From Halioglobus sp. (GTDB lineage Bacteria; Pseudomonadota; Gammaproteobacteria; Pseudomonadales; Halieaceae), in contig PABK01000060.1 in NCBI GenBank assembly GCA_002699145.1, forward strand, positions 186,001 through 250,000: a DNA stretch of 64,000 bases, given 5' to 3'. The position numbers and the translations under genes were made by a program. Shown here piece after piece: positions 20,863-36,777 of the stretch (position 1 is its first letter; each line of letters opens with the position of its first letter). A model generated the notes under the pieces. That model saw only the letters and a program-made list of their open reading frames with translations, made no database searches and was not told the DNA's origin.

Positions 20863-20948
20863 GCCGAAGTGGTGGAATTGGTAGACACGCTATCTTGAGG
20901 GGGTAGTGAGCTATGCTCGTGCGGGTTCAAGTCCCGCCTTCGGCACCA
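20863..20948 (+). tRNA. leuU: tRNA-Leu(GAG)
   Basis: 86 bases including encoded CCA. Acceptor GCCGAAG pairs with CTTCGGC; the anticodon loop CTTGAGG gives anticodon GAG; a long variable arm (GAGC-TAT-GCTC) marks class II; T-arm GGGTTCAAGTCCC. It is the equivalent of E. coli leuU, which also follows secG. Its 3' end is the attachment site of the downstream element. Confidence 0.97.
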
Positions 20949-20949
20949 T
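20926..20949 (+). repeat. attL: 3' end of tRNA-Leu
   Basis: This 24-base segment (TTCAAGTCCCGCCTTCGGC plus ACCAT) recurs at 36755-36777 in direct orientation with one G missing. Integration here reconstitutes a complete tRNA gene on the left. Confidence 0.88.
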
Positions 20950-20996
20950 TTGAACGATCCGAGGATGTCCTATGAGGTCCGAGGATTTACACTAAC

Positions 20997-21021
20997 GCCC
21001 TGTTATTGCAGGGCTTTTTTA
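20997..21021 (+). terminator. Rho-independent terminator after tRNA-Leu
   Basis: GCCCTG (20997-21002), loop TTATTG, CAGGGC (21009-21014) followed by TTTTTT. It ends the secG-tRNA-Leu transcript inside the left end of the island, so the element does not extend host transcription. Confidence 0.85.
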
Positions 21022-21074
21022 TGAAATAGTGGTCTGATTTGATCTGAGGCTGTCCATTGGCAGCCGACGAAAAG

Positions 21075-21093
21075 TGGTGCTATATTTGGTGCT
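21075..21093 (+). repeat. Arm-type repeat, left end
   Basis: TGGTGCTATATTTGGTGCT, itself two copies of TGGTGCT. The same 19 bases with one change occur near the right end at 36680-36698 in direct orientation. Likely binding sites for the arm-binding domain of the adjacent integrase. Confidence 0.7.
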
Positions 21094-21125
21094 CTCTCGG
21101 TTCAATTTTCATTTGTAGCACCACT

Positions 21126-22370
21126 ATGGCACTAGTAGACGCTCAGATCAGGCAGGCCAAACCGCAGGGCAAGGACGTCTGGCTCACCGATGAAAAGGGG
21201 CTGAGGCTTTTGATCAAGCCCAATGGTTCCAAATACTGGCGGTTGAAGTACCGCTTTCTCGGCAAGCAGAAAACCCTGGCGCTGGGAGTCTATCCCACTA
21301 TAACGCTCAAGGAGGCCCGCGAAGCTGCCGGGGATGCCAGGCGAAAGTTGGCTGGCGGAGTAGATCCGGGACAACTAAAAAAACGGGAGAAGCAGCAGCG
21401 GCTGCTGGACTCGGACAATACCTTCGCCGTATTGGCCTGGGAGTGGCATCAGCAGCAGCGCGGCACCTGGACCGCTGACCACGCGGCGCGGGTGTGGGGG
21501 CGGTTGAAGGATGATGTCCTGCCTGCCCTGGGTGAGAACCCCATCATCACCATCCAACCCCAGGACATCATCGCTGTAGTGCGCAAGATCGAGCAGCGGG
21601 GCGCTCTGGATGTAGCTTCCCGGGTGTTGCAGGACATTCGCCGCGTATGCCGCTACGCGGTCCAAACCGGTCGATTGACCTACAACCCGGCAATGGACCT
21701 CACCGGCGTTCTGAAAGCCCGCCCATCCAGTCACCGGGATTCCTTGCCCAAGGAGGAATTGCCCGACTTCCTCCGAGCCCTCACGGTTTATCACCAGCGC
21801 GGGCGCTTGCTGACCCAGTTGGCCATCCAGTTGCTGGTGCTGACCTTCGTCCGGTCCGGTGAGCTGCGCGGCGCCCGGTGGGAGGAGTTTGATCTGGACG
21901 AACGGCTGTGGCGAATCCCCGGCGCGCGCATGAAAATGAAAACGGAGCATCTTGTTCCCCTCTCGCTCCAGTCCGTCGCGGTGATCGCACAGCTCCAGCC
22001 CATCACTGGCCAGTATGACCTGGTGTTCCCCTCTGAACGAAACCGGCAGGAGCCCATGAGCGACAACACCATGCGCCGCGCCGTGTTCAAGATGGGTTAC
22101 GACGGCAACACCCTGGGCAAGAGCAAGGCCGTGCCGCATGGGTTCCGGGCAACGGCCTCCTCCATCCTCAATGAGACGGGATTCAACCCCGACGCCATCG
22201 AGCGCCAACTTGCCCATATGGAGCGAAGTGGTGTCCGGGCGGCATACACCCACCACGCCCGCTACCTGGACGAGCGCCGGGAGATGATGCAGTGGTGGGG
22301 TAACTATCTGGATCAGTTGCGGGAGGGCAGATCTAACGTGATACCCGGGAAATTCGGCATCCGAGGATAG
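21126..22370 (+). CDS. int: Site-specific tyrosine recombinase (tRNA-Leu island integrase)
   Basis: 414 residues from ATG 21126 (MALVDAQIRQAKP), the usual start of P4-type integrases. N-terminal DUF4102-like arm-binding domain (LTDEKGLRLLIKPNGSKYW in part), core-binding domain (about residues 100-190) and catalytic domain. Catalytic residues seen: Arg near 243 (FVRSGELRGARW), HGFR near 338, His in AHMERSG and Tyr near 374 in RAAYTHHARYLDERR. It lies just inside attL and reads inward, as expected for the enzyme that inserted this island. Nothing suggests it is inactive. Confidence 0.93.
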   Translation: MALVDAQIRQAKPQGKDVWLTDEKGLRLLIKPNGSKYWRLKYRFLGKQKTLALGVYPTITLKEAREAAGDARRKLAGGVDPGQLKKREKQQRLLDSDNTFAVLAWEWHQQQRGTWTADHAARVWGRLKDDVLPALGENPIITIQPQDIIAVVRKIEQRGALDVASRVLQDIRRVCRYAVQTGRLTYNPAMDLTGVLKARPSSHRDSLPKEELPDFLRALTVYHQRGRLLTQLAIQLLVLTFVRSGELRGARWEEFDLDERLWRIPGARMKMKTEHLVPLSLQSVAVIAQLQPITGQYDLVFPSERNRQEPMSDNTMRRAVFKMGYDGNTLGKSKAVPHGFRATASSILNETGFNPDAIERQLAHMERSGVRAAYTHHARYLDERREMMQWWGNYLDQLREGRSNVIPGKFGIRG

Positions 22371-23201
22371 CCTCGACCAACGTCACTAGTACGCGCAGCG
22401 GGTAGTGACGTTGGCGCCCATGCTTGTTCGTAGAACAACTACCAAATTCCGGACAGCGAACAGACACCCTCGATTGGAGCGTGTTTCCACTGGAACCACC
22501 ACCAGATGAGGGCTTCATAGATCATTTTTTGACCAAAATCGCCTGATTTTGGAAGCCGGAGTAGAGGTCTTTCCCGGGAAAGCCTATCCACACCTAACCC
22601 CAGTGCGATTAAACCGCGCCGTATACGGCCCGGATTTTGTGTGGAGCGCGCATTACGGGTTGTTGTAGTCTACCCACTCTTAGCGCGGCCACTGCGATAA
22701 AGTGGTAAAGGTTCACCCGACCTTTTAGCTTCGGCAAACCGGGTAGATAGTCTCGCGGTATTGGGGATTATCGAACGCGTCGCCGGGCCTATCGACGCAG
22801 CGGTTAATGACCGTGGCCCATCTTCAACCTTTGCAGCGCCGCCTTCGGGCAAAGCTGTATTCATAATCCAGCCCTGCAATACGCGGGCTCCTTCAATCCT
22901 CGTTGAGCAACCCTGGTGCCATTGGCCTGGTGTGCTCTGCGGTATCTTCCGTTTCGCGAGACACACTGGCGGTCAGAGTGTTTCGCATCTTCTACCCAAG
23001 GAGGTAATTCCTACCCGGCCCAGCGCCGGATAACCGTTGGTCTGCACGGGCCAGTTCTCCTGCGAGAACACACCGTGTTGTCTATGGCCAGACACATTCA
23101 GGTCAGCAGGGATTGGTGTCCCGTGATCAATACCGCTCGGGCGGTCCTGTGCAGCTGCGGCTGTCGGGTGATCAGAACCACTAACCGAAAGGAAGAGCAC
23201 C
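22371..23201. other. 831-base non-coding stretch between two recombinase genes, rich in palindromes
   Basis: No convincing gene on either strand; a 98-codon minus frame (22670-22966) has no recognisable features or good ribosome site. Palindromes seen: a perfect 12-base inverted repeat 22377-22388/22403-22414 just after the integrase stop (14-base loop, possible terminator), an 8-base stem 22533-22540/22545-22552 with a 4-base loop, the 12-base palindrome GCCGTATACGGC (22618-22629) and TTCCCGGGAA (22571-22580). It may hold an origin of transfer, excision control sites or a structured RNA; none is proven. Confidence 0.5.
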
Positions 23202-24068
23202 GTGAATGACCTGAACTACCAACTGAAAATATTGTGCAGACACAGCCGGGAGGGAAGCTACCGGACCCGGGTGGGGCGGGAGCGCCAGTTGACCGCGATC
23301 GCCAACCAACTCAAGCAGTTGGGCTACCGGAAAATGGGCGCGCGATCCCTGAAACCCAAACATATCCAGGCCTTGGTGGACTTATGGGTAGCCCAGGGGC
23401 GAAGCCCGGGTACCATCAAGAACAGAATGAGTTGTTTACGCTGGTGGGCCGAGAAGGTGAACAAACAGAATGTGATCGCCCGGGCCAATGACCACTACGG
23501 CATCCCCGACCGCAAGTTTATTGGCGAGCAGAGCAAGGCCCAGCAATTGGACATAGCGAAGCTGGAACAGATCAGGGACCCACATGTGCGAATGAGCCTG
23601 CGCCTACAGGCAGCCTTCGGGCTGCGTCGGGAGGAGGCGCTGAAGATCCAGCCCCGGTGGAGCGACCAGGGTGACTGCCTGCAGCTTAAGGCCAGCTGGA
23701 CTAAGGGTGGACGTCCCCGGACGGTGCCAATCCGTACCGACGCCCAGCGGGCGGTATTGGAAGACGCGAAGTCTCTGGCGGGATTGGGATCCCTGATCCC
23801 CGGCGACCGGCAGTATATACAGCAGTTGCGTATCTATGAGCGCCAGACCGCCAACGCGGGGCTGTCGAAAATGCATGGCCTGCGCCATGCCTATGCCCAG
23901 CGTCGGTATGAAGAACTGACCGGTTGGGCCTGTCCCCATGCCGGTGGTCCCTCACAAAGAGGTCTGACACCTGTTCAGCGCGAATGGGACGGGCAGGCCC
24001 GGCTGATTATCAGTGAGGAGCTCGGCCATGTGCGGGCACAGATTGTGGCTGTTTATTGCGGAGTCTAG
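23202..24068 (+). CDS. Second tyrosine recombinase (integrase-domain protein of Phage_integr_N/Integrase_1 type)
   Basis: 288 residues, GTG start at 23202 with GGAAG upstream. N-terminal helical core-binding region includes SLKPKHIQALVDLWVAQGRS and SPGTIKNRMSCLRWWAEKV in part; the catalytic domain has Arg in FGLRREEALK, HGLRHAYAQRRYEEL and a C-terminal ELGHVRAQIVAVYCG with the candidate catalytic Tyr. All key residues seem present. Proteins of this type are common in proteobacterial integrative elements next to AlpA regulators, and their exact role beside the main integrase is unclear; excision, resolution or a nested element are options. Confidence 0.85.
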   Translation: MNDLNYQLKILCRHSREGSYRTRVGRERQLTAIANQLKQLGYRKMGARSLKPKHIQALVDLWVAQGRSPGTIKNRMSCLRWWAEKVNKQNVIARANDHYGIPDRKFIGEQSKAQQLDIAKLEQIRDPHVRMSLRLQAAFGLRREEALKIQPRWSDQGDCLQLKASWTKGGRPRTVPIRTDAQRAVLEDAKSLAGLGSLIPGDRQYIQQLRIYERQTANAGLSKMHGLRHAYAQRRYEELTGWACPHAGGPSQRGLTPVQREWDGQARLIISEELGHVRAQIVAVYCGV

Positions 24069-24104
24069 ACCGCAATGCCGGTTAACTAAGCAAGGAATAG
24101 AACT

Positions 24105-24290
24105 ATGACCTCAAGAATTCTCAGATTAAAAGACGTGAAGGCAATGACCGGACTATCGCGCTCGACGATCTACGCCGAAATCGCTAAGGGTAAATTCCCA
24201 CGGCAAATCAGCCTGACGGGAGCCCGGTCGGTAGGTTGGCATGAGAGCGCGATTATCCAGTGGGTGGAATCACGGCAGCGGGTTGGATGA
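24105..24290 (+). CDS. alpA: AlpA-family DNA-binding regulator
   Basis: 61 residues: MTSRILRLKDVKAMTGLSRS followed by TIYAEIAKGKFPRQISL, the MerR-like winged-helix of AlpA/phage excisionase regulators; C-terminal WHESAIIQWVESR is typical. AlpA controls integrase expression or excision in P4-like elements. It lies 36 bases after the second recombinase and is probably co-transcribed. Confidence 0.92.
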   Translation: MTSRILRLKDVKAMTGLSRSTIYAEIAKGKFPRQISLTGARSVGWHESAIIQWVESRQRVG

Positions 24291-24484
24291 GTTTCAACAT
24301 TGGCGGCAGGGGGGAATAAACACGAACCAGGCAGTGGCCCAGGCCAAATCAGGCCTCCTTTTGCTTGCCGCTAGAAAAGAAAGGAGGACTGCTGCGGTAA
24401 TCCGGTTTGAAAGGTAAGATAAGGAAAATAGTGTAAGCTCCCCGCTCCGAAGTTGATCGGACGGGGCCAGACCGCAAAATATGA

Positions 24485-25006
24485 ATGTGCATGGATGAAT
24501 TCACTGCAAGACTTAAAAAAGCAGATGACCTGGCTGAGCTGCATCAGAGGGTTGGTTTTACATTATGGCAACTCCAAACATTAGAGGAAGTTGCCGCCCA
24601 GTACTTCGTTTTGAGTACCCAGGCGACCAACGGGATGGGTAAAATGGCGGGGAACGCGCTTCTCAGCAAAGCTCGCAAGAGTACCTTCGGTGGCACCATT
24701 GCGAAGATGGCAAAATCTGGGGTGCTCGATGAAAAACTTCATTCAAAGCTTTTAGAAATTCTGGATCAAAGGAACTGGCTAGTGCACAGATCCTTGAACG
24801 ATAGCTACTACGCCCTACAAGACTATGGAGCATTGCTCAAACTGGTTACGAGAATCGAAAATATAGCCCGAGAGGCAATGGTGCTCATGAAGAATATCGC
24901 AAGTCTGGCTGAAGTTTTTGTTAAGGATCGGGGGATTTCCTCTATGGAAATCGACAGGATGACTAAAGAGTTGCTTGACGAGTGGGCGACTTCTGATGCG
25001 TATTAG
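24485..25006 (+). CDS. HEPN-like protein with RX4H motif, candidate defence RNase
   Basis: 173 residues, helical and soluble, no known name. The segment LDQRNWLVHRS contains R96-N-W-L-V-H101, an RX4H motif typical of HEPN ribonucleases, placed between helices as in that fold. N-terminal start is ATG 24485 or the in-frame ATG 24491. It lies 84 bases before the three overlapping genes of the pentapeptide/NTase operon and shares their low GC. HEPN proteins often act with nucleotidyltransferases as toxin/antitoxin partners or abortive-infection effectors, and an NTase lies two genes downstream. Function is inferred from motif and context only. Confidence 0.6.
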   Translation: MCMDEFTARLKKADDLAELHQRVGFTLWQLQTLEEVAAQYFVLSTQATNGMGKMAGNALLSKARKSTFGGTIAKMAKSGVLDEKLHSKLLEILDQRNWLVHRSLNDSYYALQDYGALLKLVTRIENIAREAMVLMKNIASLAEVFVKDRGISSMEIDRMTKELLDEWATSDAY

Positions 25007-25090
25007 CTCCATCCATTCGATGAGTCGACACCGCACTTTATACGGGCGCTGAGGTGATGTCTTACTTTTACTCGGTCATCAAGGATTAGA

Positions 25091-25891
25091 ATGGAACTAG
25101 TCGATCACACGAAGCCGCTCATTGAAGACAAGGAATTTGTCGCTGATGTCATTGAAGAGGATTTCTCCCAGAAATCATTCAATAGAGTATTTGCTCTAAA
25201 AAAAGTTTTCACAGATGTTAGCTTCAAACAGTCTGAGATTTCCAACTGCTACTTCAGAAACTGTAGGTTTATTCGTTGCGACTTTACCGGTGCAAATATT
25301 GCTAGATCAAATTTCAGAGGCGCACAGTACGAAGAATGCAAGTTTCATTATTCAACTTGGGAACATACGATACTAGACGAGGAATTTCTGGATAACTGCC
25401 TACCAAGTGAAGACAGCTTGGCACGTGATTTGGCGCGTAGCTTACGGACCAATTTCAGCCAGATAGGCAACTATCAGGCAGTCAACAAAGCAGCCTCCAT
25501 CGAAGTTGCTATGACAGGATTACACTTTTTTAATGCGGCTTTTTCCAAGCAATCCTATTATCGCTCGAAATATAAAGGATGGCGCAGAATCCTGCATGTT
25601 CTTCGTTATACAAAATGGAAGGCTCTTGATCTACTCTGGGGAAATGGCGAAAGTCTATTACGTATAATTGCTTCCGGCATATTTGCTGTTCTAGTCTGCT
25701 CGTTAGTTTTAGCTTGGCGAGAGCCTATTTTCCCGTGGTCTGACGTATTTGGGCTTGTTGCAACGGCATTTTGGGGCGTTGAGACCACACCGCCGTTACC
25801 AGGTCATTTCCTTGCGATGCTGACTGCCATTAGATTCGTCCTGTTTGGCCTTTTTATGGCAATCTTAGTGAAGCGACTATCAAGGCGATGA
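25091..25891 (+). CDS. Pentapeptide-repeat protein with C-terminal two-helix channel-like domain
   Basis: 266 residues. Residues about 41-90 are pentapeptide repeats (FTDVSF, ISNCYF, NCRFIRCDF, GANIARSNFRGAQYEECKF), forming a right-handed beta-helix. After a charged linker come membrane helix 1 (189-208, LLRIIASGIFAVLVCSLVLAW), a re-entrant-like segment (218-236, VFGLVATAFWGVETTPPLP) and helix 2 (240-261), followed by basic KRLSRR. This is the topology of a two-helix potassium-channel pore, but no GYG-type filter is present. Predicted inner-membrane protein, possibly a pore-forming effector. Its stop overlaps the NTase start by ATGA. Low-GC cargo gene. Confidence 0.7.
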   Translation: MELVDHTKPLIEDKEFVADVIEEDFSQKSFNRVFALKKVFTDVSFKQSEISNCYFRNCRFIRCDFTGANIARSNFRGAQYEECKFHYSTWEHTILDEEFLDNCLPSEDSLARDLARSLRTNFSQIGNYQAVNKAASIEVAMTGLHFFNAAFSKQSYYRSKYKGWRRILHVLRYTKWKALDLLWGNGESLLRIIASGIFAVLVCSLVLAWREPIFPWSDVFGLVATAFWGVETTPPLPGHFLAMLTAIRFVLFGLFMAILVKRLSRR

Positions 25892-26505
25892 GTCACGAAA
25901 TTTATGTTTTCGGCTCAGTTACAAGAGGTGAGGTCAGTCCTACCTCCGATGTGGACATGCTCGTCATACCCATGAGCGGAGATCGTGACCAGTATCCTCC
26001 CGGGTGGAGCATATACTCCCCGTCACTTATCGAAGAATACTTTCTCAATGGGCGGCTATTTGCTTGGCACCTTCATTTAGAAGCCCGCTGCATTTACACC
26101 CCGTTTGACATACCATTTTTGGAATCCCTGGGGGCGCCGCAGCCTTACATTACGATGTTCCAAGATATTGATGATCTCGAAACGCTCTTGGCCGAAGCGC
26201 TTGAGCAGATATCATTGGGGACAAATAGCCTCGTTTACGAACTTGGTATTGCGTATACAGCCATTAGAGATATAGCCATGTCGGCATCCTGGTCATTACT
26301 TGGAAGGCCATGCTTTTCCCGACGCGCTCCATATCTGCTCCCTGTGCCATTCCCTTTGGCTACGGAGGCTTACAGTGGCGCTATGTTGGCCAGGCATAGT
26401 TCTGTACGCGGAATAGATATCGATTTTCATTTGGAAAAGATAGCTAAAGAAGTGACACATGCGCCATTGAGACAATGGGTGAACAGTTTGAAAAATTTCA
26501 GATGA
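25888..26505 (+). CDS. Nucleotidyltransferase-fold protein (MNT-like) with C-terminal helical region
   Basis: 205 residues. N-terminal FGSVTRGEVSPTSDVDMLV contains G9-S10 and the metal-binding pair D21/D23 of the polymerase-beta nucleotidyltransferase superfamily; E65 in HLHLEAR is a candidate third acidic residue. The C-terminal half is helical (LAEALEQISLGTNSLVYELG; AYTAIRDIAMSASW). The chain begins almost at the first catalytic strand, so it is compact. It is too short for a typical CD-NTase and longer than a minimal MNT antitoxin. It could AMPylate a partner (as MntA does to HEPN toxins) or make a nucleotide signal. ATGA overlaps at both ends give tight coupling to its neighbours. Confidence 0.72.
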   Translation: MSHEIYVFGSVTRGEVSPTSDVDMLVIPMSGDRDQYPPGWSIYSPSLIEEYFLNGRLFAWHLHLEARCIYTPFDIPFLESLGAPQPYITMFQDIDDLETLLAEALEQISLGTNSLVYELGIAYTAIRDIAMSASWSLLGRPCFSRRAPYLLPVPFPLATEAYSGAMLARHSSVRGIDIDFHLEKIAKEVTHAPLRQWVNSLKNFR

Positions 26506-26822
26506 AAAATACGTTTCTAAACAGAGTGTCGGCCGAGCGCAAGGTACTGCGTGTGGTTAATAAGTCGGTACCTAGAGCGCTTCAATTAACTGGGCTGTCC
26601 AGCGCGGCGATCGGGCTCTGGCGCGGAAAGATCGGATTTGACAGAACCCATTCCATATATCCGGTCCTTGTGAATCTTGCTGAGGGTTGTCAGAGATTGT
26701 CCGATCGCAGCAATGAAACATTTCTACCTTTAGAAAATCAAGATGCCGAGGCGATAGAGCGTGAACTCAAAAACTTGGAATGCGAAATAGGTAAGTTATC
26801 GGGAAGGCTTGCTGGTGCATAG
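26502..26822 (+). CDS. Small protein of the NTase operon, unknown function
   Basis: 106 residues starting MKNTFLNRVSAERK. The ATG at 26502 overlaps the NTase stop as ATGA; a longer frame from 26475 is possible but less likely. It is basic in the first half (KVLRVVNKSVPRALQLTG) and ends in a heptad-like charged helix (DAEAIERELKNLECEIGKLS), suggestive of a short coiled coil. No membrane segment. I do not recognise it. As the third gene of a tightly overlapping operon it is probably a partner or regulator of the NTase. Confidence 0.6.
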   Translation: MKNTFLNRVSAERKVLRVVNKSVPRALQLTGLSSAAIGLWRGKIGFDRTHSIYPVLVNLAEGCQRLSDRSNETFLPLENQDAEAIERELKNLECEIGKLSGRLAGA

Positions 26823-26930
26823 TTGGTCCCATGCAGGTCATCGCGTGATTTATATAATAACCAATGCACCCCTCCAGCAAGTGTATTTGAATTTTAGTAC
26901 GGAGACTCTCGGAAAAATGGCGACTTAGCG

Positions 26931-29693
26931 ATGGTTAATCAAACCCCTGAACAGCGCGCCCGCGACCAGATCGACCGTCAGCTTGGTTTGGCCGGCTGGG
27001 TCGTGCAGGATAGCAAGGCCATCAATTTTAATGCCGGCCCCGGGATTGCCGTGCGTGAATACCAGACCGACGTCGGCCCGGCGGACTATGTGTTGTTCGT
27101 GGAAAAAAAGGCTGTGGGCGTGATAGAAGCCAAACCCGAGGCCTGGGGTCACAAGATTACCACCGTTGAAGAGCAATCCACTGGTTACGCTAACGCTACC
27201 TTGAAGTGGGTCAACAACCAGGCCCCACTGCGCTTTGTTTACGAGAGCACCGGTGTTATTACCCGTTTCACCGACGGGCAGGACCCCAAGCCTCGCGCAC
27301 GCGAGTTGTTCAACTTTCACCGCCCGGAGACCCTCGTAGGTTGGCTCAGCCAGCCTGGAACCCTGCGACATCGCTTGCAAAACCTTCCATCACTAAACAC
27401 CGAAGGCCTGCGCGCCTGCCAGATTACCGCCATTAACAATCTGGAAGCCTCCTTCAAGCAGGACAAGCCCCGCGCCCTGATACAAATGGCAACCGGTTCC
27501 GGCAAGACCTTTACCGCCATCTCCAGCGTCTACCGGCTGATCAAGCATGCCGAGGCGAAGCGCATCCTGTTTCTCGTGGACACAAAAAACCTTGGTGAAC
27601 AGGCCGAGCAGGAATTCATGGCTTTTTTGCCCAACGACGACAACCGCAAGTTTACCGAGCTTTATACCGTGCAACGCCTGAAATCGTCTTTCGTGGCCAC
27701 AGACGCACAGGTCTGTATCAGCACCATCCAGCGCATGTATTCCCTGCTCAAGGGCGAAGAACTGGACGAGGCGGCAGAAATTAACAACCCGGCGGAGCTA
27801 AAAATCACCGCCAAGCAACCGCTCCCGGTGGTTTACAACAACAAGATTCCCCCCGAGTTCTTCGATGTCATCATCATCGACGAGTGCCACCGCTCTATCT
27901 ATAATCTGTGGCGCCAGGTAATCGAGTATTTTGACGCTTACCTTGTCGGTCTCACCGCCACGCCTGATAACCGCACCTACGGTTTCTTCCGAAAAAACGT
28001 GGTGAGTGAATACGACCACGAAAAGGCCGTGGCAGACGGGGTCAACGTCGGCAACGAGATCTATCTGATAGAAACCGAGAAAACCCAAAAGGGTGGCACT
28101 CTTACTGCCAGGCAGCAGATCGAGAAGCGCGAACGCCTGACCCGCAAAAAGCGCTGGGAGACCCAGGACGAGGACGAGGTATACAGCGCCAAACAGCTTG
28201 ATCGCGATATCGTCAACCCGGACCAGATTCGCACGGTGGTCCGCACGTTCCGTGAGAGGCTGCCGCAGATCTTTCCTGGTCGCATTGAGGTGCCCAAAAC
28301 CTTGATCTTCGCCAAAACTGATAGCCATGCCGATGACATTATCCACATCGTTCGCGAGGAGTTCGGCGAAGGCAACCAGTTTTGTAAGAAGCTCACCTAC
28401 AAGATCGAGGAAGACCCGAAATCCGTTCTCGCACAGTTCCGTAATGACTACTACCCTCGCATCGCCGTGACAGTGGACATGATCGCCACCGGTACCGACG
28501 TGAAACCCCTTGAGTGCTTGTTGTTTATGCGGGATGTGAAAAGTCGCAACTACTTCGAGCAGATGAAAGGCCGAGGCACGCGTACCCTGGATGCCGATAG
28601 CCTGAAAAAGGTCACGCCGTCCGCCACCAGCGCCAAAACCCACTACGTGATTGTAGATGCCATCGGCGTTACGAAGTCATTGAAAACTGCCAGTCAGCCA
28701 CTGATTACCAAGCCCAGTGTGTCTCTGAAAGACCTGGCCATGGGGGTAATGATGGGCGTGCGCGACGAGGATACAGTCTCTTCGTTGGCCGGGCGCCTGG
28801 CGCGACTGGAAAAACAGCTTGACCCGCCTGAGCAACACCGGATTGCGGACGCGGCTGATGGCACGCCGCTGCCAGTCATTATTGGGGATTTGCTAAATGC
28901 CATTAATCCCGACACGGTGGAAAAGAGGGCCTGTGAGATCGCCCAGCTGCCCGAGGGATCAGATCCCGGTGGGGATGCCCGCAATCAGGCCCGCGATGAA
29001 CTTGTTGGCCTGGCCGCCAACGTTTTTACCGGTGAACTCATTGAGCTGATTGATAGTATCCGCCGCGACAAGGAACAGACCATTGTCCACGATGACCTGG
29101 ACACGTTGACCGCGGCTGGCTGGGCCGGCGACACTACCGAGAACGCCAAGTTGCTAACCCAGGAGTTTGCCGAGTATCTCAATGAGCACCGGGACGATAT
29201 TGACGCTTTGAATATCTACTTTCAGACACCGGCCCGTCGAAGCGAAGTCAGCTACGCCATGATCAAAGCCCTACTGGAGCGCCTGCGGCAGGATCGCCCG
29301 AAACTCGCTCCACTGCGTGTCTGGCACGCCTACGCCCACCTGGAAAAGTACCAGGGAGAAAACCCAGTCAGTGACTTGGCCGCACTGGTAGCGTTAGTCC
29401 GACGTGTGTGTGGACTGGACGCAACGCTATCGACTTACGCAGCCACCGTGCGCAAAAACTTCCAACGTTGGATTATGCAACATCACAGCGGCGCCGGTGA
29501 GAAATTCAATGAGGAGCAAATGGCGTGGTTGCATATGATCCGCGACCACGTCATCAGTTCGTTCCACGTTGAGCGTGACGATCTGGATATGGCGCCATTT
29601 GACGCTAGAGGCGGGTTGGGGCGAATGTATCAGTTGTTTGGGGATGGGATGGATCGGGTGATCGAGGAGTTAAATCGGGAGTTGGTAGCTTGA
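26931..29693 (+). CDS. hsdR: Type I restriction endonuclease subunit R
   Basis: 920 residues. Motor/nuclease subunit of a type I R-M complex: translocates DNA and cleaves unmethylated DNA far from the site. N-terminal nuclease domain (PD-(D/E)xK type, around ADYVLFVEKKAVGVIEAKPE in part, with D, and E-A-K), helicase Walker A ATGSGKT near residue 186, DECH box near residue 317 (IIIDECHRSIYNLW) and helicase C-terminal motifs including DMIATGTDVKPLECLLFMR cut here and QMKGRGTR. Complete and apparently intact. Overlaps hsdS as TTGA. Confidence 0.95.
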   Translation: MVNQTPEQRARDQIDRQLGLAGWVVQDSKAINFNAGPGIAVREYQTDVGPADYVLFVEKKAVGVIEAKPEAWGHKITTVEEQSTGYANATLKWVNNQAPLRFVYESTGVITRFTDGQDPKPRARELFNFHRPETLVGWLSQPGTLRHRLQNLPSLNTEGLRACQITAINNLEASFKQDKPRALIQMATGSGKTFTAISSVYRLIKHAEAKRILFLVDTKNLGEQAEQEFMAFLPNDDNRKFTELYTVQRLKSSFVATDAQVCISTIQRMYSLLKGEELDEAAEINNPAELKITAKQPLPVVYNNKIPPEFFDVIIIDECHRSIYNLWRQVIEYFDAYLVGLTATPDNRTYGFFRKNVVSEYDHEKAVADGVNVGNEIYLIETEKTQKGGTLTARQQIEKRERLTRKKRWETQDEDEVYSAKQLDRDIVNPDQIRTVVRTFRERLPQIFPGRIEVPKTLIFAKTDSHADDIIHIVREEFGEGNQFCKKLTYKIEEDPKSVLAQFRNDYYPRIAVTVDMIATGTDVKPLECLLFMRDVKSRNYFEQMKGRGTRTLDADSLKKVTPSATSAKTHYVIVDAIGVTKSLKTASQPLITKPSVSLKDLAMGVMMGVRDEDTVSSLAGRLARLEKQLDPPEQHRIADAADGTPLPVIIGDLLNAINPDTVEKRACEIAQLPEGSDPGGDARNQARDELVGLAANVFTGELIELIDSIRRDKEQTIVHDDLDTLTAAGWAGDTTENAKLLTQEFAEYLNEHRDDIDALNIYFQTPARRSEVSYAMIKALLERLRQDRPKLAPLRVWHAYAHLEKYQGENPVSDLAALVALVRRVCGLDATLSTYAATVRKNFQRWIMQHHSGAGEKFNEEQMAWLHMIRDHVISSFHVERDDLDMAPFDARGGLGRMYQLFGDGMDRVIEELNRELVA

Positions 29694-31036
29694 CAGTCAG
29701 TAATTCTTTGCCGCTAGGATGGTCTAGGCAATGCCTCGGCGACCTTTTTGAGTTCAAAGGTGGAGGAACTCCCAATAAGAAAAACCCCGATTACTGGGGA
29801 GGCGATATCCCCTGGGCTTCGGTAAAGGACATAAAATCTCAGTACTTGACGAATACTATCGATAGCATCACGGAAAAGGGATTAAGCGAAAGTGCCTCCA
29901 ATCTAGCCTTGCCCGGGAATTTGGTGCTTCTGACTCGTATCTTGCCCGGCAAGGTCGCCATCGTTAAAAACATGGTAGCGGTGAATCAAGACTGCAAAAT
30001 CGTCATGCCAGCCGATTATGTCAATATAGATTGGGCATACTACCTATTCCGCGCTATTGAGAGAGAATTCATTAATCGTGCCAGTGGGACAACTGTTCTC
30101 GGGATACGGTTGAATGATGTCAACGATATTCCGGTCGCGCTACCACCTCTCGAAGAACAACACCGCATAGTCGCCAAAATTGAAACTTTGTTCTCCGAGC
30201 TCGACAAAGGCATCGAAGCCCTCAAAACCGCCCGTGAGCAACTCAAAGTCTACCGCCAGGCTGTGCTAAAACATGCCTTCGAGGGCAAACTAACTGCTCA
30301 CTGGCGCGAGGAAAATCGAGTGGGTGAGTGGAAAACTGCCAAGCTCGGAGAGCAGCTCTCATTCCTTACGTCCGGGTCGCGGGGTTGGGCAGCATTCTAC
30401 GCTAATGAAGGAGATATATTTATTAGAGCGCAAAATCTAAAACGTGATCGACTTGATCTCGATGATGTTGCTTATGTCAAACTTCCGGTGAAATCTGAAG
30501 GTAAGCGAACCCGAGTCCGAACTGGCGACCTGCTTATTACCATTACTGGCGCAAATGTCACCAAGACTGGCTATGTTACCAACGATCTCGGCACTGCTTA
30601 TGTCAGTCAACATGTTGCACTTTGTCGGCCAGTTGAAGCGATGGATACTGAGTTTCTTTATTGGTATCTGATTGCAGAGGTGGCGGGTAGGCGGCAGTTA
30701 AACGATTTTGCATACGGCGCAGGCAAGCCTGGATTGAATCTCGATAACATCCGCTCGGTTGATGTATTGTTCCCTGAAATCGATGAGCAGAGGCAGGTAG
30801 TTCAAAAGATCAAAGAACTACTTTCAGTTGAGGAGAATGTGACATTTTCGATTGATGCTGAGCTGATACGAATCGAAACCCTCCGCCAATCTATCCTAAA
30901 AAAGGCCTTCTCAGGACAGCTCGTCCCGCAAGACCCCAACGACGAACCCGCCGCCGTTCTGCTAGAGCGCATCCGTGCGGAAAGTGGAGCACAGAATACA
31001 GCTCGCAAAATGCCTAAGCGGAAGCTCTCGGCATAA
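29690..31036 (+). CDS. hsdS: Type I restriction-modification specificity subunit S
   Basis: 448 residues. Two target-recognition domains, each followed by a conserved helical spacer: first unit LPLGWSRQCLGDLFEFKGGG to PLEEQHRIVAKIETLFSELD, second unit ENRVGEWKTAKLGEQLSFLTSG in part to PEIDEQRQVVQKIKELLSV. The two spacers fix the distance between half-sites of a bipartite recognition sequence. TTG start at 29690 overlaps the hsdR stop. hsdM is not next to it, but 3.3 kb downstream. Confidence 0.94.
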   Translation: MTVSNSLPLGWSRQCLGDLFEFKGGGTPNKKNPDYWGGDIPWASVKDIKSQYLTNTIDSITEKGLSESASNLALPGNLVLLTRILPGKVAIVKNMVAVNQDCKIVMPADYVNIDWAYYLFRAIEREFINRASGTTVLGIRLNDVNDIPVALPPLEEQHRIVAKIETLFSELDKGIEALKTAREQLKVYRQAVLKHAFEGKLTAHWREENRVGEWKTAKLGEQLSFLTSGSRGWAAFYANEGDIFIRAQNLKRDRLDLDDVAYVKLPVKSEGKRTRVRTGDLLITITGANVTKTGYVTNDLGTAYVSQHVALCRPVEAMDTEFLYWYLIAEVAGRRQLNDFAYGAGKPGLNLDNIRSVDVLFPEIDEQRQVVQKIKELLSVEENVTFSIDAELIRIETLRQSILKKAFSGQLVPQDPNDEPAAVLLERIRAESGAQNTARKMPKRKLSA

Positions 31037-31041
31037 GTGCG

Positions 31042-31171
31042 ATTACCTCTGGGCAGATTGTGGCATGGAGGAAATATAGCGCCTGATTTTTACCGGGAAG
31101 TCGCGCCCGGTAATCTTCGAGCCGACACCAACATCGATACAAGGCACTTGGAAACGCCGGAATTGCAGCAA
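31042..31171 (-). pseudogene. Remnant of a TIR-like gene, paralogous to the gene at 31413
   Basis: On the minus strand a short open stretch reads VGSKITGRDFPVKIRR, matching 11 of 16 residues of AGSKVTGRDFLLKIWR in the adjacent TIR-like protein, and the bases are also similar. The frame has stops on both sides and no start. It suggests decay of a tandem copy or a recombination scar. The rest of the 31037-31412 gap has no convincing gene; an 89-codon plus frame there is not supported. Confidence 0.35.
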
Positions 31172-31412
31172 TCACTTAAGGTATATTTCCAGATGTTCAT
31201 GTTGCGCCCCGTTTATAACCAAAAAGCGTTCCCGCGGAGACGCGAGGCATTAATTTCGTCCAGTGTGTCGAGCATTTACCCCCGCAAGCAAGATGGACTG
31301 CCTTGAAGTCGCATTGCCCGGTGCAGGCTATTAGCGGCGAGCCCGGCTGCGCCCGAGTCACCAGGCCGCGAAGCAGACTCTCATGAGCCTCGGAGTGCTT
31401 GTTAACCAGTCG

Positions 31413-32054
31413 CTAAAAAGTAGCCGCAAGAAGTTCCACGCTGTTTTTCGCCCGATTTTCCAGACCGGCAGCGTGAGCTATTTCTTGTGCTTTCTTTCTG
31501 AGTCTCTTGTCCCCGGATATGAGAAAGGCGCGCTTAAGGTAGTCAATAGCCAGGATCGGATTTCTATCCAGTTGGTCTGCAACCGTCTCGTAGTGATCGG
31601 CTTGCTCCGAGAGTGATTTAAGGAAAGAGGCGAAATTAGAGCTGAAATTTTTGTCGAACTCCACATACTCGGTACGTATGAAATCACTGGGCACTTTTGC
31701 CGCTGGCGATTTGATGAGCAGCGTCTCCTTCCCCAGCGCCTGTGCAACACCGATCTCGTAATAGATATTTGCCTGGGTGGTGGAGGGGATATCCTCGTGG
31801 CAAACTCCGATGGATAGCGGGGTAGCGGCTATCAACCTCCAGATTTTCAGTAAGAAGTCGCGTCCGGTTACTTTTGAGCCGGCGTCAATTACCCGGTAAT
31901 CCTGCTTTTTACACAATTCAGTTACACGATCTCGTATTCCCGCTACCGACGGCGGAACCGGGTGACCCAGCCTCGTCATCAGAAAGCAGTGCCTGGGTTT
32001 ACTCTTTACAGAACTGGTATAGGCATCCCCGTCGAGAGGGTTGTAGATGATCAC
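31413..32054 (-). CDS. TIR / nucleoside-deoxyribosyltransferase-like protein, candidate nucleotide-cleaving effector
   Basis: 213 residues, GTG start sharing one base with the upstream stop (TAGTG). The N-terminal Rossmann-like domain has the pattern of TIR-like and deoxyribosyltransferase-like enzymes: CFLMTRLG strand, IWRLIAATPLSIGV, then ANIYYEIGVAQALGKETLLI, where E100 would be the catalytic Glu that attacks N-glycosidic bonds. The C-terminal 80 residues are helical (AIDYLKRAFLISGDKRLRKK) and may sense or oligomerise. Such folds are common NAD- or nucleotide-depleting effectors in anti-phage systems. It is embedded between hsdS and AbiE, facing the opposite way. Enzyme activity is inferred. 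Confidence 0.65.
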   Translation of the reverse strand: MIIYNPLDGDAYTSSVKSKPRHCFLMTRLGHPVPPSVAGIRDRVTELCKKQDYRVIDAGSKVTGRDFLLKIWRLIAATPLSIGVCHEDIPSTTQANIYYEIGVAQALGKETLLIKSPAAKVPSDFIRTEYVEFDKNFSSNFASFLKSLSEQADHYETVADQLDRNPILAIDYLKRAFLISGDKRLRKKAQEIAHAAGLENRAKNSVELLAATF

Positions 32055-32221
32055 TACTTGCGCTTCCTTGCAACGGGCACTCCCTTGTAGGGGCCTTCGG
32101 ATTTTTTGTGAGCCACGATTTTTCCCGCCGAGCGGTCAATTTTGACATAGTGCCCGGTTTTTGGGTTTTTGACCTGGACGACGTCCCGTTTTCCGTCTCC
32201 GGAAGATTTCTTTGTAGTCAT
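32054..32221 (-). CDS. Small basic protein paired with the TIR-like gene
   Basis: 55 residues (MTTKKSSGDGKRDVVQVKNP then KTGHYVKIDRSAGKIVAHKK to RKRK), ATG at 32221, stop overlapping the GTG of the TIR-like gene by one base. It is highly lysine-rich with a beta-rich core, like small conserved proteins seen beside defence genes. No membrane segment. The tight overlap implies co-translation, so it may be a regulator, DNA/RNA-binding sensor or inhibitor of the enzyme. Confidence 0.6.
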   Translation of the reverse strand: MTTKKSSGDGKRDVVQVKNPKTGHYVKIDRSAGKIVAHKKSEGPYKGVPVARKRK

Positions 32222-32617
32222 AAGTTCACCAGGTGGGGGATGGTTAAAGTTTAACAGTGACTGCCCTTTTTGGCGCCGGCGTAGCCTAGCCTCGTATTTT
32301 AGTGCACCGGTTGACCAAGATAGTACTTTTGTCGCCGGTTGGCGATGCCCATCGAGGCAACGCCCGCATATGATAAATCTCGCTGAAGGCAGGAATGTGT
32401 TTTGCGGCTTGAGTAGTCTGTACGCGCCGCAAAACTATTTGTGTAGTCTGAATCTCATAATGGGCTACATAATAACACCCTCGTTTAATAAGGTGTGATT
32501 ATACGGCGATATGCGCCGCAAAAATAATATATAGTAAACTACCGAAATTCCTGATAGTTTAATCATTCAATTAAACGCGGTGACTAACGCCGTATATATG
32601 GATATATGTAAACCGCG
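32222..32617. promoter_or_regulatory. Divergent control region of the TIR-like pair and AbiE, with inverted repeats
   Basis: 396 bases, AT-rich, no gene. Inverted repeats: GTTTTGCGGC (32399-32408) with its perfect complement at 32426-32435; CGGCG/CGCCG at 32504-32508/32514-32518; TAAACTA/TAGTTTA at 32535-32541/32555-32561. GCGCCGCAAAA occurs twice, at 32425-32434 and 32513-32523 or close to those bases. AbiEi antitoxins repress their own promoter by binding inverted repeats, so the repeats near 32.50-32.56 kb are operator candidates. Confidence 0.5.
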
Positions 32618-33385
32618 ATGCTTTCTACAAACGAGAGTATGGAGCTTCTCCCCTTCGGCCAAATAGCCACCCGTCGCTGGCTGCTGACTCAGGGCATGAC
32701 TCGCCATATGCTCGATAATGCTTTGAAATCAAAGAAGTTTGTTGCTCTGGCCCACGGCGTGGTGGCACGTCCCGGCGTCCCCGTCACCTGGGAGGGGTTA
32801 GCATCTTCGCTAAATCGTATGTTGGCTAGCCCTGTATATGTCGGCGGCATGACGGCGCTGGAGCAAGCAGGGTTGGGGCATTACCTGCGGTCGGCATCGT
32901 CCATACACCTTTACTCTGCGGAGCCATGTCCGGCCTGGCTGGAGAGACTCGATCTGGGGGTCACGGTTGAGTGGTACAGTACTCGCCGCCTGTGGCTGGA
33001 AAACGCTCTGCAACAAGCCAACAGCCTGAAAGAGCAGTCGTGGAGTGGCCCTCTTCCATATCTAATGGCGGCGCCAGAGCGGGCCTACCTGGAAGTATTG
33101 GCCGATGTGCCCGAGAAAGTGAGTTTCGAGCATGCCGACCAGTTGATGCAAGGGTTGACTTCGCTGTCACCGCGCCGGCTGGATGTCTTGCTGAAGGGTT
33201 GCCGCCATATCAAGGTTAAACGCCTGTTTTTCTTTTTTGCCACTCGCTATGACTACGGTTGGCTCAAACATCTCGATCGCAAGGCCTACGATCTGGGCAG
33301 TGGTAAGAGGGTGGTGGCCAAGGGCGGGAGGCTCGATAGCGAGTACTTGATCACCGTGCCGGAGGCATTCCATGGACCGGAATAA
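32618..33385 (+). CDS. abiEi: AbiEi-family type IV antitoxin / transcriptional repressor
   Basis: 255 residues. N-terminal winged-helix-like domain (FGQIATRRWLLTQGMTRHML) followed by the AbiEi core (GVVARPGVPVTWEGLASSLN; YVGGMTALEQAGLGHYL) and C-terminal domain ending KGGRLDSEYLITVPEAFHG in part. In characterised AbiE systems the antitoxin blocks the nucleotidyltransferase toxin and represses the operon. ATG at 32618; the 3' end overlaps the toxin gene by 14 bases. Confidence 0.9.
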   Translation: MLSTNESMELLPFGQIATRRWLLTQGMTRHMLDNALKSKKFVALAHGVVARPGVPVTWEGLASSLNRMLASPVYVGGMTALEQAGLGHYLRSASSIHLYSAEPCPAWLERLDLGVTVEWYSTRRLWLENALQQANSLKEQSWSGPLPYLMAAPERAYLEVLADVPEKVSFEHADQLMQGLTSLSPRRLDVLLKGCRHIKVKRLFFFFATRYDYGWLKHLDRKAYDLGSGKRVVAKGGRLDSEYLITVPEAFHGPE

Positions 33386-34286
33386 CTCTTACTACCGCCA
33401 GGTGCAGTTTTTAATTCAGCTCCTGCCGTTGGTAGCTGGCGAATCGTGTTTCGCCCTGAAGGGCGGCACGGCGATCAATCTGTTTGTTCGGGATTTCCCT
33501 CGCTTGTCGGTCGATATTGATCTGGTGTATCTACCACCTGGTGGCAGGGAGGAGGCGCTAGAGGCGATCAAGGCCGCCTTGGAGCGTCTGGCCGGGAAAA
33601 TTGAAAAAACTTTCCCCGGCGTTACCGTGGTGAAAAGTTACCGGGACAAGCAAGATGCGCTGCGCCTCACAGTAGCCAATAAAGGCGCCAGTATTAAAAT
33701 TGAACTATCGCCGGTCCTACGTGGCACCGTATTTGCCCCTCAAATTCGATCCGTAGTTCCGGCAGTGGAAGATGAGTTTGGCTTTGCCGAGATGGCGGTA
33801 GTTTCGTTTGAAGATCTATTTGCTGGCAAGATCTGTGCGGCATTGGATCGCCAACACCCCAGGGACTGGTTTGATATTCATCTATTACTCGAAAATGAGG
33901 GGCTGACGGAGCCGCTGATTAAGACGTTTCTTGTTTACCTTATCAGTCACTCGCGTCCGATGGAGGAGTTGCTGGCGCCCAACTTCAAGCCCCTCAACAC
34001 TGCTTATGGCTCGGAATTCGTGGGTATGACGCAGATCGACGTCGCGGTAAAGACGCTGGAGGAAACCCGTGTCCGGCTGATTCATCAGATTGCCGGGGCA
34101 TTAAGCCGCGAGGATAAGGCGTTTTTGTGTGGCATGTACGAATTGTTGCCGAATTGGTCACTGCTGGGCCTTGAAGGGATTCAGGATCTTCCAGCAGTTC
34201 AGTGGAATCTACACAACATCAGAAGGATGACTGACGAAAAGCGCAAGGCCTCGTTGGAGAGGCTCAAGCAGGTTTTGAGTCTGTGA
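33372..34286 (+). CDS. abiEii: AbiEii nucleotidyltransferase toxin
   Basis: 304 residues. DNA polymerase-beta-type NTase of the AbiEii/Toxin_1 family: KGGTAINLFVRDFPRLSVDI followed by DLVYLP, with GG-T and D-x-D metal residues near residues 31-50. Further family segments are EDLFAGKICAALDRQHPRDW and FDIHLLLENEGL. Characterised members transfer nucleotides to tRNA acceptor stems and halt translation, causing abortive infection. Overlaps the antitoxin gene, forming the two-gene AbiE module. Confidence 0.92.
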   Translation: MDRNNSYYRQVQFLIQLLPLVAGESCFALKGGTAINLFVRDFPRLSVDIDLVYLPPGGREEALEAIKAALERLAGKIEKTFPGVTVVKSYRDKQDALRLTVANKGASIKIELSPVLRGTVFAPQIRSVVPAVEDEFGFAEMAVVSFEDLFAGKICAALDRQHPRDWFDIHLLLENEGLTEPLIKTFLVYLISHSRPMEELLAPNFKPLNTAYGSEFVGMTQIDVAVKTLEETRVRLIHQIAGALSREDKAFLCGMYELLPNWSLLGLEGIQDLPAVQWNLHNIRRMTDEKRKASLERLKQVLSL

Positions 34287-34334
34287 ACGCGTTATAACCA
34301 GTTCTCGTCCGATTAGACACTAAGGAACTATAGA

Positions 34335-35819
34335 ATGAGCAGTGCCCCCATCATCTCTAAAGTCTGGAGCTTTTGTACCACCCTGCGCGACGACGGTGTG
34401 GGTTATGGCGATTATCTGGAACAACTCACCTACCTGATCTTTCTGAAAATGGCGGACGAGTATGCCAAACCACCGTACAACCGCGACGTAGGTATTCCGA
34501 AGAAGTACAACTGGCAGAGCCTGAATAACAAGCGCGGTGCGGAGCTTGAAGTTCTGTATGTCGAGTTGCTGCGGGCTCTGGGCACCCAAAAGGGCATGCT
34601 CGGTCAGATTTTCACGAAGGCGCAGAATAAGATCCAAGACCCAGCCAAACTCTATCGCCTGATCGATATGGTGGATAGCACCCAATGGGTGGTCATGGGC
34701 GCCGATGTAAAAGGCGATATCTATGAGGGCTTGCTGGAGAAAAACGCTGAGGACACCAAATCCGGCGCCGGCCAGTATTTCACCCCGCGGGCGCTCATCC
34801 GCGCTATGGTCGAATGCGTGCGCCCGGAGCCGGGCAAGACCATTGCCGACCCGGCCTGTGGCACCGGCGGCTTCTTCCTAGCCGCCTACGACTTCATCAC
34901 CCATGCTGATAACTACAAGCTGGATAAAGCCCAGAAGGCTTTTCTGAAACACCAGACCTTCTATGGCAATGAGATTGTGGCCAATACTCGCCGAATGTGC
35001 CTGATGAATATGTTCCTGCACAACATCGGTGAGATTGATGGCGAGAGCATGGTATCGCCCAACGACGCCCTGGTGGCGGCCAGTGCCCAGAGTGTGGACT
35101 ACGTGCTGGCCAACCCGCCCTTTGGCAAGAAAAGCTCCATGAGCTTTACCAATGAAGAGGGTGAGCAGGAAACAGATGATCTGACCTACAACCGCCAGGA
35201 TTTCTGGGCCACCACTTCCAACAAGCAGCTCAATTTCGTGCAACACATCCGCACTATGCTAAAAACCACTGGCAAGGCCGCGGTGGTGGTACCGGACAAC
35301 GTGCTTTTTGAGGGCGGCGCCGGTGAAACCATACGTCGGAAACTGCTGGAGAATACGGATCTTCACACCATCCTGCGCCTGCCCACCGGAATCTTCTACG
35401 CCCACGGGGTGAAGGCAAATGTGCTGTTCTTCGACAACCGAGAAGCCAGCCCGAACCCCTGGACGAAGGAAGTCTGGTACTACGACTATCGCACCAATAT
35501 CCACCACACTTTGAAGAAGAAGCCGTTGCGCTTCGAAGATCTGGCCGAGTTTATCCAGTGTTACAACCCGCAAAACCGCAACAAGCGTAAAGCCACCTGG
35601 CACCAGGATAAGAACCCGGACGGGCGCTGGCGCAGCTTCAGCTACAAAGACCTTGTCGCCCGTGACAAAACCAGCTTGGACGTGTTCTGGTTAAAGGACA
35701 AAAGCCTGACCGACTTGGATAACCTGCCCGAGCCGGATGAGCTGGCGGAGGAGATTATTGAAAATCTGGAAGCGGGATTGGAGAGTTTCCGGGCGGTGTT
35801 GGCAGAATTAAGCCCTTAG
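34335..35819 (+). CDS. hsdM: Type I restriction-modification methyltransferase subunit M
   Basis: 494 residues. N-terminal HsdM_N helical domain (about 1-130), SAM motif I DPACGTGGFFLAAYDFI near residue 172 and catalytic motif IV NPPFGKKSS near residue 260 (N6-adenine type). C-terminal helical tail contacts HsdS. It should methylate the recognition adenines with HsdS and form the restriction complex with HsdR. It is separated from hsdR-hsdS by the TIR-like and AbiE genes, an unusual order R-S-//-M. Confidence 0.95.
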   Translation: MSSAPIISKVWSFCTTLRDDGVGYGDYLEQLTYLIFLKMADEYAKPPYNRDVGIPKKYNWQSLNNKRGAELEVLYVELLRALGTQKGMLGQIFTKAQNKIQDPAKLYRLIDMVDSTQWVVMGADVKGDIYEGLLEKNAEDTKSGAGQYFTPRALIRAMVECVRPEPGKTIADPACGTGGFFLAAYDFITHADNYKLDKAQKAFLKHQTFYGNEIVANTRRMCLMNMFLHNIGEIDGESMVSPNDALVAASAQSVDYVLANPPFGKKSSMSFTNEEGEQETDDLTYNRQDFWATTSNKQLNFVQHIRTMLKTTGKAAVVVPDNVLFEGGAGETIRRKLLENTDLHTILRLPTGIFYAHGVKANVLFFDNREASPNPWTKEVWYYDYRTNIHHTLKKKPLRFEDLAEFIQCYNPQNRNKRKATWHQDKNPDGRWRSFSYKDLVARDKTSLDVFWLKDKSLTDLDNLPEPDELAEEIIENLEAGLESFRAVLAELSP

Positions 35820-35913
35820 AAGTAATACAACTGGGCTCGTTTAACCGGTCTGTTAGCTGATTCCCGCAAATTTCAGTGAGAATCAATAAGAGTAAGTCAA
35901 ATTCGGAGCAACC

Positions 35914-36573
35914 ATGCATCTCGACCCGATTATTTTACGCCGACTTCAAGAGCTTCAACTGAAAGGGGAGGGAGTGATTGCGGCAAAGATTCTTGATTTC
36001 ACAGATTCAGAAGGCAAGTCATATTTTAAGGTTCCCACTGCCTCGTATAAGGAATGGGCTACCAATGTTCTTAATCTTCTTCAAAGGACATTTGGAGATA
36101 ACAGCATTCACTTCCAGAATTTCAAACAACATTACACAGAATTTGATGGCTGGCTTTCGGACTGTGAGGACAACTTTGCGATTTTCTCAGCCGCCAAGGA
36201 AGATTATGAAGGTGGCTATCTTTTTAGCTTTCGGGCTTTGGCGAAGGCCGAAGTATTGTCTGATGCTTTGACGCAAGCAAAAGAGTTGCTTGCGACGGGC
36301 TATAAGGATCCCGCTTGTATTCTTGCGCGGGTCGCACTTGAATCGGTACTAAAAGATTTGGCCGACCGCAACGGAGTACAACATGGCAAGCTGGATAAGA
36401 TGAACGCGGATCTTTCAAAAACTGGGGCCTACAACATGGCGAAGCAGAAGCAAATCACCGCATGGGCGGAAATAGGCAACAAGGCAGCCCATGGCGAGTG
36501 GTCTAAGTATACGGAAGGGGACGCCACTGCAATGGTTTCTGGAGTAGAAGCTCTAGTTGCCGACTTGTTGTGA
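35914..36573 (+). CDS. DUF4145/HEPN-like protein
   Basis: 219 residues. C-terminal segment (about residues 115-219) resembles DUF4145: DPACILARVALESVLKDLADR, then QITAWAEIGNKAAHGEWS. In HEPN terms the motif is NKAAH without the leading Arg at the usual place, so catalysis is doubtful. The N-terminal half has ATNVLNLLQRTFGDNS and is less distinctive. DUF4145 proteins are frequent partners of type I R-M systems. Last gene of the island, 94 bases after hsdM. Confidence 0.7.
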   Translation: MHLDPIILRRLQELQLKGEGVIAAKILDFTDSEGKSYFKVPTASYKEWATNVLNLLQRTFGDNSIHFQNFKQHYTEFDGWLSDCEDNFAIFSAAKEDYEGGYLFSFRALAKAEVLSDALTQAKELLATGYKDPACILARVALESVLKDLADRNGVQHGKLDKMNADLSKTGAYNMAKQKQITAWAEIGNKAAHGEWSKYTEGDATAMVSGVEALVADLL

Positions 36574-36679
36574 TCAGTACATACAACAAAGTGCGGCTCC
36601 ACTTAAACTTCTTCTCGCGCGGCATGGTTTGGGTTGTGCTCAGTCGGTAAGGGACGTTACCGGGGTTAAGGCTCGAATA

Positions 36680-36754: not shown

Positions 36755-36777
36755 TTCAAGTCCCGCCTTCGCACCAT
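36755..36777 (+). repeat. attR: truncated copy of the tRNA-Leu 3' end
   Basis: TTCAAGTCCCGCCTTCGC plus ACCAT: identical to attL except for one missing G. It is not part of a tRNA here, which marks the right boundary of the island. Confidence 0.88.

Follow-up and report, generated by a model that had tools for sequence, protein, structure and literature searches.

Three consecutive genes of a Halioglobus sp. contig (GenBank assembly GCA_002699145.1, PABK01000060.1), here called A, B, and C, were analyzed in a window of 64,000 nucleotides (positions 186,001 to 250,000 of the contig, forward strand); the coordinates in Table 1 are those of the window. Gene A encodes a pentapeptide-repeat protein with a predicted channel-like end, gene B a nucleotidyltransferase (NTase), and gene C a small protein. 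An original prediction, made from the sequence alone, had described the three genes as joined by ATGA overlaps at both junctions, and the open reading frames (ORFs) were found exactly so. The start of gene C was taken as the ATG at 26502; the mechanical ORF list puts the start of this ORF at 26475. The order A-B-C was found again in 25 other loci, so the arrangement is more than chance.

Table 1. Features of the A-B-C locus and of the surrounding island
Feature	Position	Strand
Gene A (266 aa): HalA-like effector, predicted to consist of a pentapeptide beta-helix, a linker of helices, and a channel-like domain with two TM segments	25091..25891	+
Gene B: HalB-like Pol-beta nucleotidyltransferase, 205 aa	25888..26505	+
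Gene C: small predicted all-helical protein, 106 aa, no known family	26502..26822	+
ATGA overlap, B start / A stop	25888..25891	+
ATGA overlap, C start / B stop	26502..26505	+
HEPN-like ORF (RX4H), judged most likely a bystander	24485..25006	+
Left copy, within tRNA-Leu, of a 17-bp att-like repeat; probable left boundary of the island	20926..20942	+
Right copy of 17-bp repeat, likely right island end	36755..36771	+

Protein A matched the Pfam Pentapeptide model (PF00805) with 32.6 bits, over its cut-off, and Pentapeptide_4 with an E-value of 8.9e-9, slightly under the cut-off. Hydrophobic peaks were located at residues 189-207 and 242-260. The AlphaFold model, built from 15 sequences (pLDDT 86.7, pTM 0.61), contained beta strands at residues 10-91, helices at 99-183, and then helices at 189-210, 216-227, and 238-265; as modeled, the last three would represent a first transmembrane helix (TM1), a pore helix, and a second transmembrane helix (TM2). 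Pfam, hydrophobicity, and AlphaFold thus agree with the description of A first given, i.e. pentapeptide repeats followed by two membrane helices around a re-entrant-like segment, and the structure prediction proposed at that stage returned a helix-short helix-helix order at the C terminus. The same order is typical of the K+ channel pore domain (Ion_trans_2). A homologue of A from Priestia, which the A profile matched with 136 bits over residues 30-294 of 295, scored over the cut-off of Pfam Ion_trans_2 and contains a TVGYG stretch, judged by eye. This homologue suggests a channel ancestry for A. Insertion sequence (IS) elements interrupt gene A in two related loci (L006, 2867-4561; L007, 2752-4004), in which B and C remain open, as expected if A is a costly effector.

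Protein B contains the motif FGS..R...SDVD and an acidic residue at position 65. Asp21 and Asp23, already named in the original prediction, did not vary in any of the 22 aligned rows, the lowest identity to B among the relatives being 29%, and the NTase with a GS...DxD signature that had been foreseen was thereby confirmed. B matched Pfam NTP_transf_2 (E 4.2e-6) and the NCBIfam HalB model (E 1.1e-7, residues 7-146, 31.7 bits at a cut-off of 190). A profile of 11 B rows matched the solved HalB structure 9dbj with an E-value of 1.8e-11; in chain 9dbi, other residues replace the two aspartates of 9dbj to which Asp21 and Asp23 of B correspond. Comparison by hhalign with a six-row HalB-type profile gave an E-value of 1e-20 over 169 columns, one of the six rows (L012) being later placed in the clade that carries C, and the 22-row B profile matched the HalB proteins of loci L034 (48 bits) and L028 (28 bits). 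B or HalA queries had no match in a phage collection.

The nearest relatives of A and B lie in the Hailong defense system (HalA/HalB; Tan et al. 2025, doi 10.1038/s41586-025-09058-z). Among solved structures, a Foldseek search with the model of A ranked HalA with oligodeoxyadenylate (9nyi) first (E 3.4e-9, 312 alignment columns including gaps), and A matched the NCBIfam HalA model (E 9.7e-6, 25 bits at a cut-off of 250). The first statement, that no named system with this exact set was known, is therefore not supported: by NCBIfam, profile, and Foldseek comparison, A and B are distant relatives of HalA and HalB. Both systems combine a pentapeptide-repeat effector carrying a C-terminal two-helix channel, which in A is a prediction, with an overlapping downstream gene for a Pol-beta NTase, and B has kept the catalytic acids. 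Kinship of A-B-C with Hailong is almost certain. Hailong is reportedly an operon of two genes, with no conserved third one. A-B-C differs from it in the third gene that follows B, in the length of A (266 as compared with 371 residues in 9nyi), in the end of B, and in the scores of A and B, which stay under the NCBIfam cut-offs.

What is new here is protein C as a third gene. No credible match for C was obtained in Pfam, NCBIfam, PADLOC, or PHROGs, single members of the family giving lone weak matches with best E-values of 0.013 to 0.033 per library. In all 25 of the other loci that were counted (L002-L012, L014, L015, L025, L026, L038, and L040-L048), C directly followed B, and A was alongside as well. 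Queries with B contributed 4/4 loci in one search, 6/6 plasmid records, and 2/2 viral loci, together with L012, L014, and L015, which were taken from genomes of the class matching the HalB model and then confirmed as relatives of B. The A query contributed 10/10 viral loci, L025 being again among them, and the C query L038 (2 of 398 genomes, the window's own included). Duplicates (L001, L018, L036, L037, L039, and L050-L053) were not counted. The check for co-occurrence that had been proposed for all four genes hence united A, B, and C, and the HEPN-like gene stood apart from them; an uncharacterized small protein encoded in one operon with an NTase and a pore effector, as first described, is supported.

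C was searched for with its profile around nine HalB-type NTases outside the clade and was not found; neither was it found around L028 and L034/L035. Twelve genomes of the class matched the HalB model. Four of them hold relatives of B (the window, L012, L014, and L015), and a further one, L013, has a HalB-like NTase beside other genes; of the remaining seven only L016 was read, the coverage of L017 and L019-L024 being limited to tblastn and a search with the C profile. In the search for HalB-type NTases on plasmids, 7 of 13 records were examined. C's own alignment yielded no confirmed relative among 14 stretches of viral contigs, a scan that must be insensitive, because the A and B queries did find C in such contigs. 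An operon detected by the A query on a plasmid of Priestia megaterium (Bacillota; L054, 2854-4860) encodes a pentapeptide and Ion_trans_2 channel protein, a HalB-like NTase, and an overlapping third ORF of 139 residues that matched the C profile weakly (3.5 bits); this locus is outside the 25 and outside the tyrosine count given below, yet it is labeled as carrying C in the B tree. Among titles on Hailong and on pentapeptide, NTase, and channel combinations none dealt with a third gene, although prior notice in the primary Hailong paper is possible.

Residues Phe5, Arg13, Trp40, and Ser70 of C were invariant in both C alignments. The ratio of nonsynonymous to synonymous substitution rates was 0.17 for C of L003/L005 and 0.18 for L040/L041, and L046 and L047 showed zero amino acid differences. 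Between the three genes, distances were correlated (0.86-0.93), a level reached in 0 of 2000 permutations (17 loci), in line with joint inheritance. AlphaFold predicted four helices (pLDDT 78.6), with Ser70 ending the third helix, before a low-confidence stretch. We rejected the idea that C is a piece of HalB or HalA that came to be encoded separately, as hhalign detected no similarity (probability 0.1).

The C termini of most NTases differ between the two groups. HalB is reported to prime DNA synthesis with a tyrosine at its C terminus. B of the window ends in LKNFR, without such a tail. A tyrosine within the last five residues was present in 8 of 8 HalB-type NTases without C (L027-L034) versus 6 of 26 B proteins of the C clade (Fisher p 0.00017), and the difference persisted when near-copies were grouped by hand (7/7 versus 4/22, p 0.00021). 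The tyrosine codon overlaps the start codon of C in four of these six (L040, L041, L045, and L012), the last tyrosine lies inside gene C in L002, and in L048 it is just ahead of the C start. These codons being tied to the B/C overlap, the six tails may be by-products of it. In the B tree, one branch (100/100) parts 23 rows labeled as carrying C, Priestia included, from seven rows without C.

HalB-type NTases were also encountered in other company. Plasmid loci L027 and L029-L032 pair one, with a tyrosine within its last five residues, with a WYL protein; these pairs differ from A-B-C in that the partner is not a channel and C was not found. Some of them adjoin CBASS-like or other defense genes, and it is possible that they represent a further Hailong-like pair. 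On a small Klebsiella plasmid (L033, 1312-3654) a HalB-like NTase with a tyrosine tail follows a DUF1883 gene, a WYL gene being on the other strand. In L013 (430-1839), genes for a small protein and a putative membrane protein adjoin that of the HalB-like NTase, which has no tyrosine tail.

Three citing papers describe how Hailong works. Single-stranded DNA oligomers suppress its effector and phage exonuclease activity relieves the suppression (PMC12657230); oligodeoxyadenylate is a negative regulator of Hailong activation (PMC12265719); and the system uses a decoy molecule to sense anti-defense activity (PMC12657218). A fourth speaks of poly-dA adducts of HalB that block the HalA channel (PMC13275509).

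We favor, with moderate confidence, the assignment of A-B-C to a sister lineage of Hailong that has three genes: a signal from B would restrain A, C would assist, and A would be released upon infection. B would steadily produce a signal built of (deoxy)nucleotides, probably a short strand of DNA, and the signal and C would hold A closed in healthy cells. A phage enzyme destroying the signal (in Hailong an exonuclease) would let A open, and ion leakage through A would halt growth before phage are released. Inhibitory signaling, whose direction is carried over from Hailong by homology, is likely. The original prediction had let the NTase control or activate a membrane pore and/or a HEPN RNase; the coupling of an NTase to a membrane-pore effector in one operon stands, while the HEPN part falls away, and "activates" would point in the wrong direction if the order of Hailong holds here too, in which the NTase product suppresses the effector and phage exonuclease lifts the suppression (PMC12657230 and PMC13275509).

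For C we see an even chance that it acts in the signaling itself, where it might prime, stabilize, or present the signal; a primer, a clamp, a sensor, or a regulator are the candidate roles. Because B proteins of the C clade mostly do not have the HalB-type tyrosine tail, C would, on this reading, take over that part. In its most specific and rather unlikely form, this would make C a protein primer, i.e. a miniature terminal protein: B, having no self-priming C-terminal tyrosine, would use C as the base for DNA synthesis, the strand being attached perhaps to the invariant Ser70, next to the loop that follows helix 3, and the resulting adduct of C and DNA would plug channel A until a phage nuclease trimmed it. 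Several relatives have phage-like settings: L041 lies beside a lambda-type integrase, L042 beside a P2-type replication gene (GPA), L043 beside DnaB and DUF1367, and L005 adjoins an OLD-like gene. Such settings fit superinfection defense and prove nothing.

A number of observations weigh against the reading of A-B-C as a Hailong sister lineage with C in its signaling. The NCBIfam scores of A and B are far under the cut-offs, which are strict: the HalB of L028 (185; its HalA scored 266.6) and both Hal proteins of L034 (HalA 230.6, HalB 162.8) also miss them. The alignment of the B profile with HalB 9dbj is limited to residues 5-103. The superposition of A on HalA is poor (TM-scores of 0.30-0.35, rmsd 12.4), so that the domain arrangement of the two may differ; the A sequence profile reaches the pentapeptide region of HalA and aligns mainly that part, and hhalign aligned only 30 columns of A and HalA, near TM1. 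The A of the window differs from K+ channel pore domains in that it matched no channel model in the Pfam scan, and no TVGYG-like filter motif was seen in it. C is matched on a second Piscirickettsia plasmid (NZ_CP039221.1, 50393-50617, 40% over 75 residues) that has no B match at 1e-5, which may be C without B or a remnant. Correlated distances, as given above for A, B, and C, are expected of linked genes in any case. L013, outside the tyrosine count, is a C-less HalB-like NTase in which neither A nor C was found by tblastn and the C profile, and it ends without tyrosine, which turns 8/8 into 8/9. The single-branch split of the B tree implies one evolutionary change, and the Fisher test consequently overstates independence. 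The tree has long branches (L054, L012, and L028; program warning), and the C-clade and C-less groups came from different queries.

The upstream HEPN-like gene was initially counted as a fourth member of the module. Its position and motif are as described: it ends 84 bases before A on the same strand and contains Arg96-x4-His101. Its family assignment is weak: the Pfam HepT model gave an E-value of 0.0015, under the cut-off, DUF4145 matched weakly, and no Protein Data Bank (PDB) match better than E 0.48 was obtained. One four-gene module of HEPN, A, B, and C would be in keeping with the common strand, the short gap, and the lack of any terminator-like site found in that gap. Against it, tblastn (E <= 0.01) did not find the HEPN-like gene in any of the 19 related loci whose sequence extends 2 kb or more upstream of A; one of them is L007, in which an IS cut gene A and the upstream side is perhaps not original. 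Its sole plasmid relative at E <= 1e-3 (L049, Thauera plasmid, 43%) has no A, B, or C nearby, and among 369 genomes of the class it occurred (E <= 1e-5) in the window's own only. Not being kept beside A-B-C, it is most likely a neighbor and, judged from these distributions, a bystander rather than a member; the four-gene module is highly improbable. A HEPN-MNT pair of this gene and B was rejected because the two are not conserved together. A toxin-antitoxin system of the MntA type (type VII, HepT/MntA), in which B would adenylylate A (or C) directly without a free signal, is quite improbable as well. B has a minimal NTase motif with a HEPN gene nearby, matches minimal NTases and, weakly, the MntA antitoxin (E 6.3e-4), and its gene follows that of an effector. 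However, the match to HalB is better and covers residues 7-146 as compared with 5-28 only for MntA, and A is not a HEPN protein.

An NTase with a membrane effector also corresponds to the established logic of cyclic oligonucleotide-based antiphage signaling systems (CBASS) and pyrimidine cyclase systems for antiphage resistance (Pycsar). Infection would then switch B on, its product would open A, and C could be a sensor or regulator of B. We consider this unlikely: the nearest relatives of A and B, HalA and HalB, use an inhibitory signal, and membership of B in CBASS was rejected after no CBASS-named model appeared among its nine PADLOC matches at E <= 1 (2023 library). C might, finally, stand outside the mechanism as a helix-turn-helix (HTH)-like transcriptional autoregulator of the operon. 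The all-helical model of C, very weak PDB matches (AlpA, E 0.036; P22 C2, E 0.79 and 0.93), and the lone weak match of one C member to a sigma-70 extracytoplasmic function (ECF) model (E 0.033) speak for this. On the other hand, no HTH family matched more than one C member (best HTH_Tnp_1, E 0.087), C is the last and tightly overlapped gene of the operon, and the invariant serine ends helix 3. The autoregulator is a possibility that we find doubtful.

The genomic surroundings agree with the early description of AT-rich genes in a defense island. GC content is 43-48% for the HEPN-like gene, A, B, and C versus 62-72% per kb in most of the flanks, and genes of a type I restriction-modification (R-M) system and AbiE (AbiEi/AbiEii) are neighbors of A-B-C. 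A tRNA-Leu gene at 20863-20948 is followed by an integrase (Arm-DNA-bind_3) at 21057-22370. Since a 17-base stretch from the 3' part of the tRNA is repeated at 36755, the island probably extends from 20926 to 36771 (about 15.8 kb). The type I R-M genes do not form one block: AbiEi/AbiEii (32618-34286) lie between hsdR and hsdS (26931-31036) on one side and hsdM (34335-35819) on the other. A DUF4145 protein is encoded at 35914-36573, just within the right island end, and a second, smaller integrase-like gene (23202-24068) and an AlpA regulator (24105-24290) lie directly upstream of the HEPN-like gene. A promoter scan found 2 sites versus 4.1 expected from shuffles.

Hailong belongs to the few defense systems in which a nucleotide signal holds immunity back instead of setting it off. 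The evolution of guards of this kind would be illustrated by a sister lineage in which the priming tail of the enzyme has seemingly been swapped for an additional small protein. For the "hypothetical" genes that make up A-B-C in prophages, plasmids, and chromosomal islands, a function in defense is predicted.

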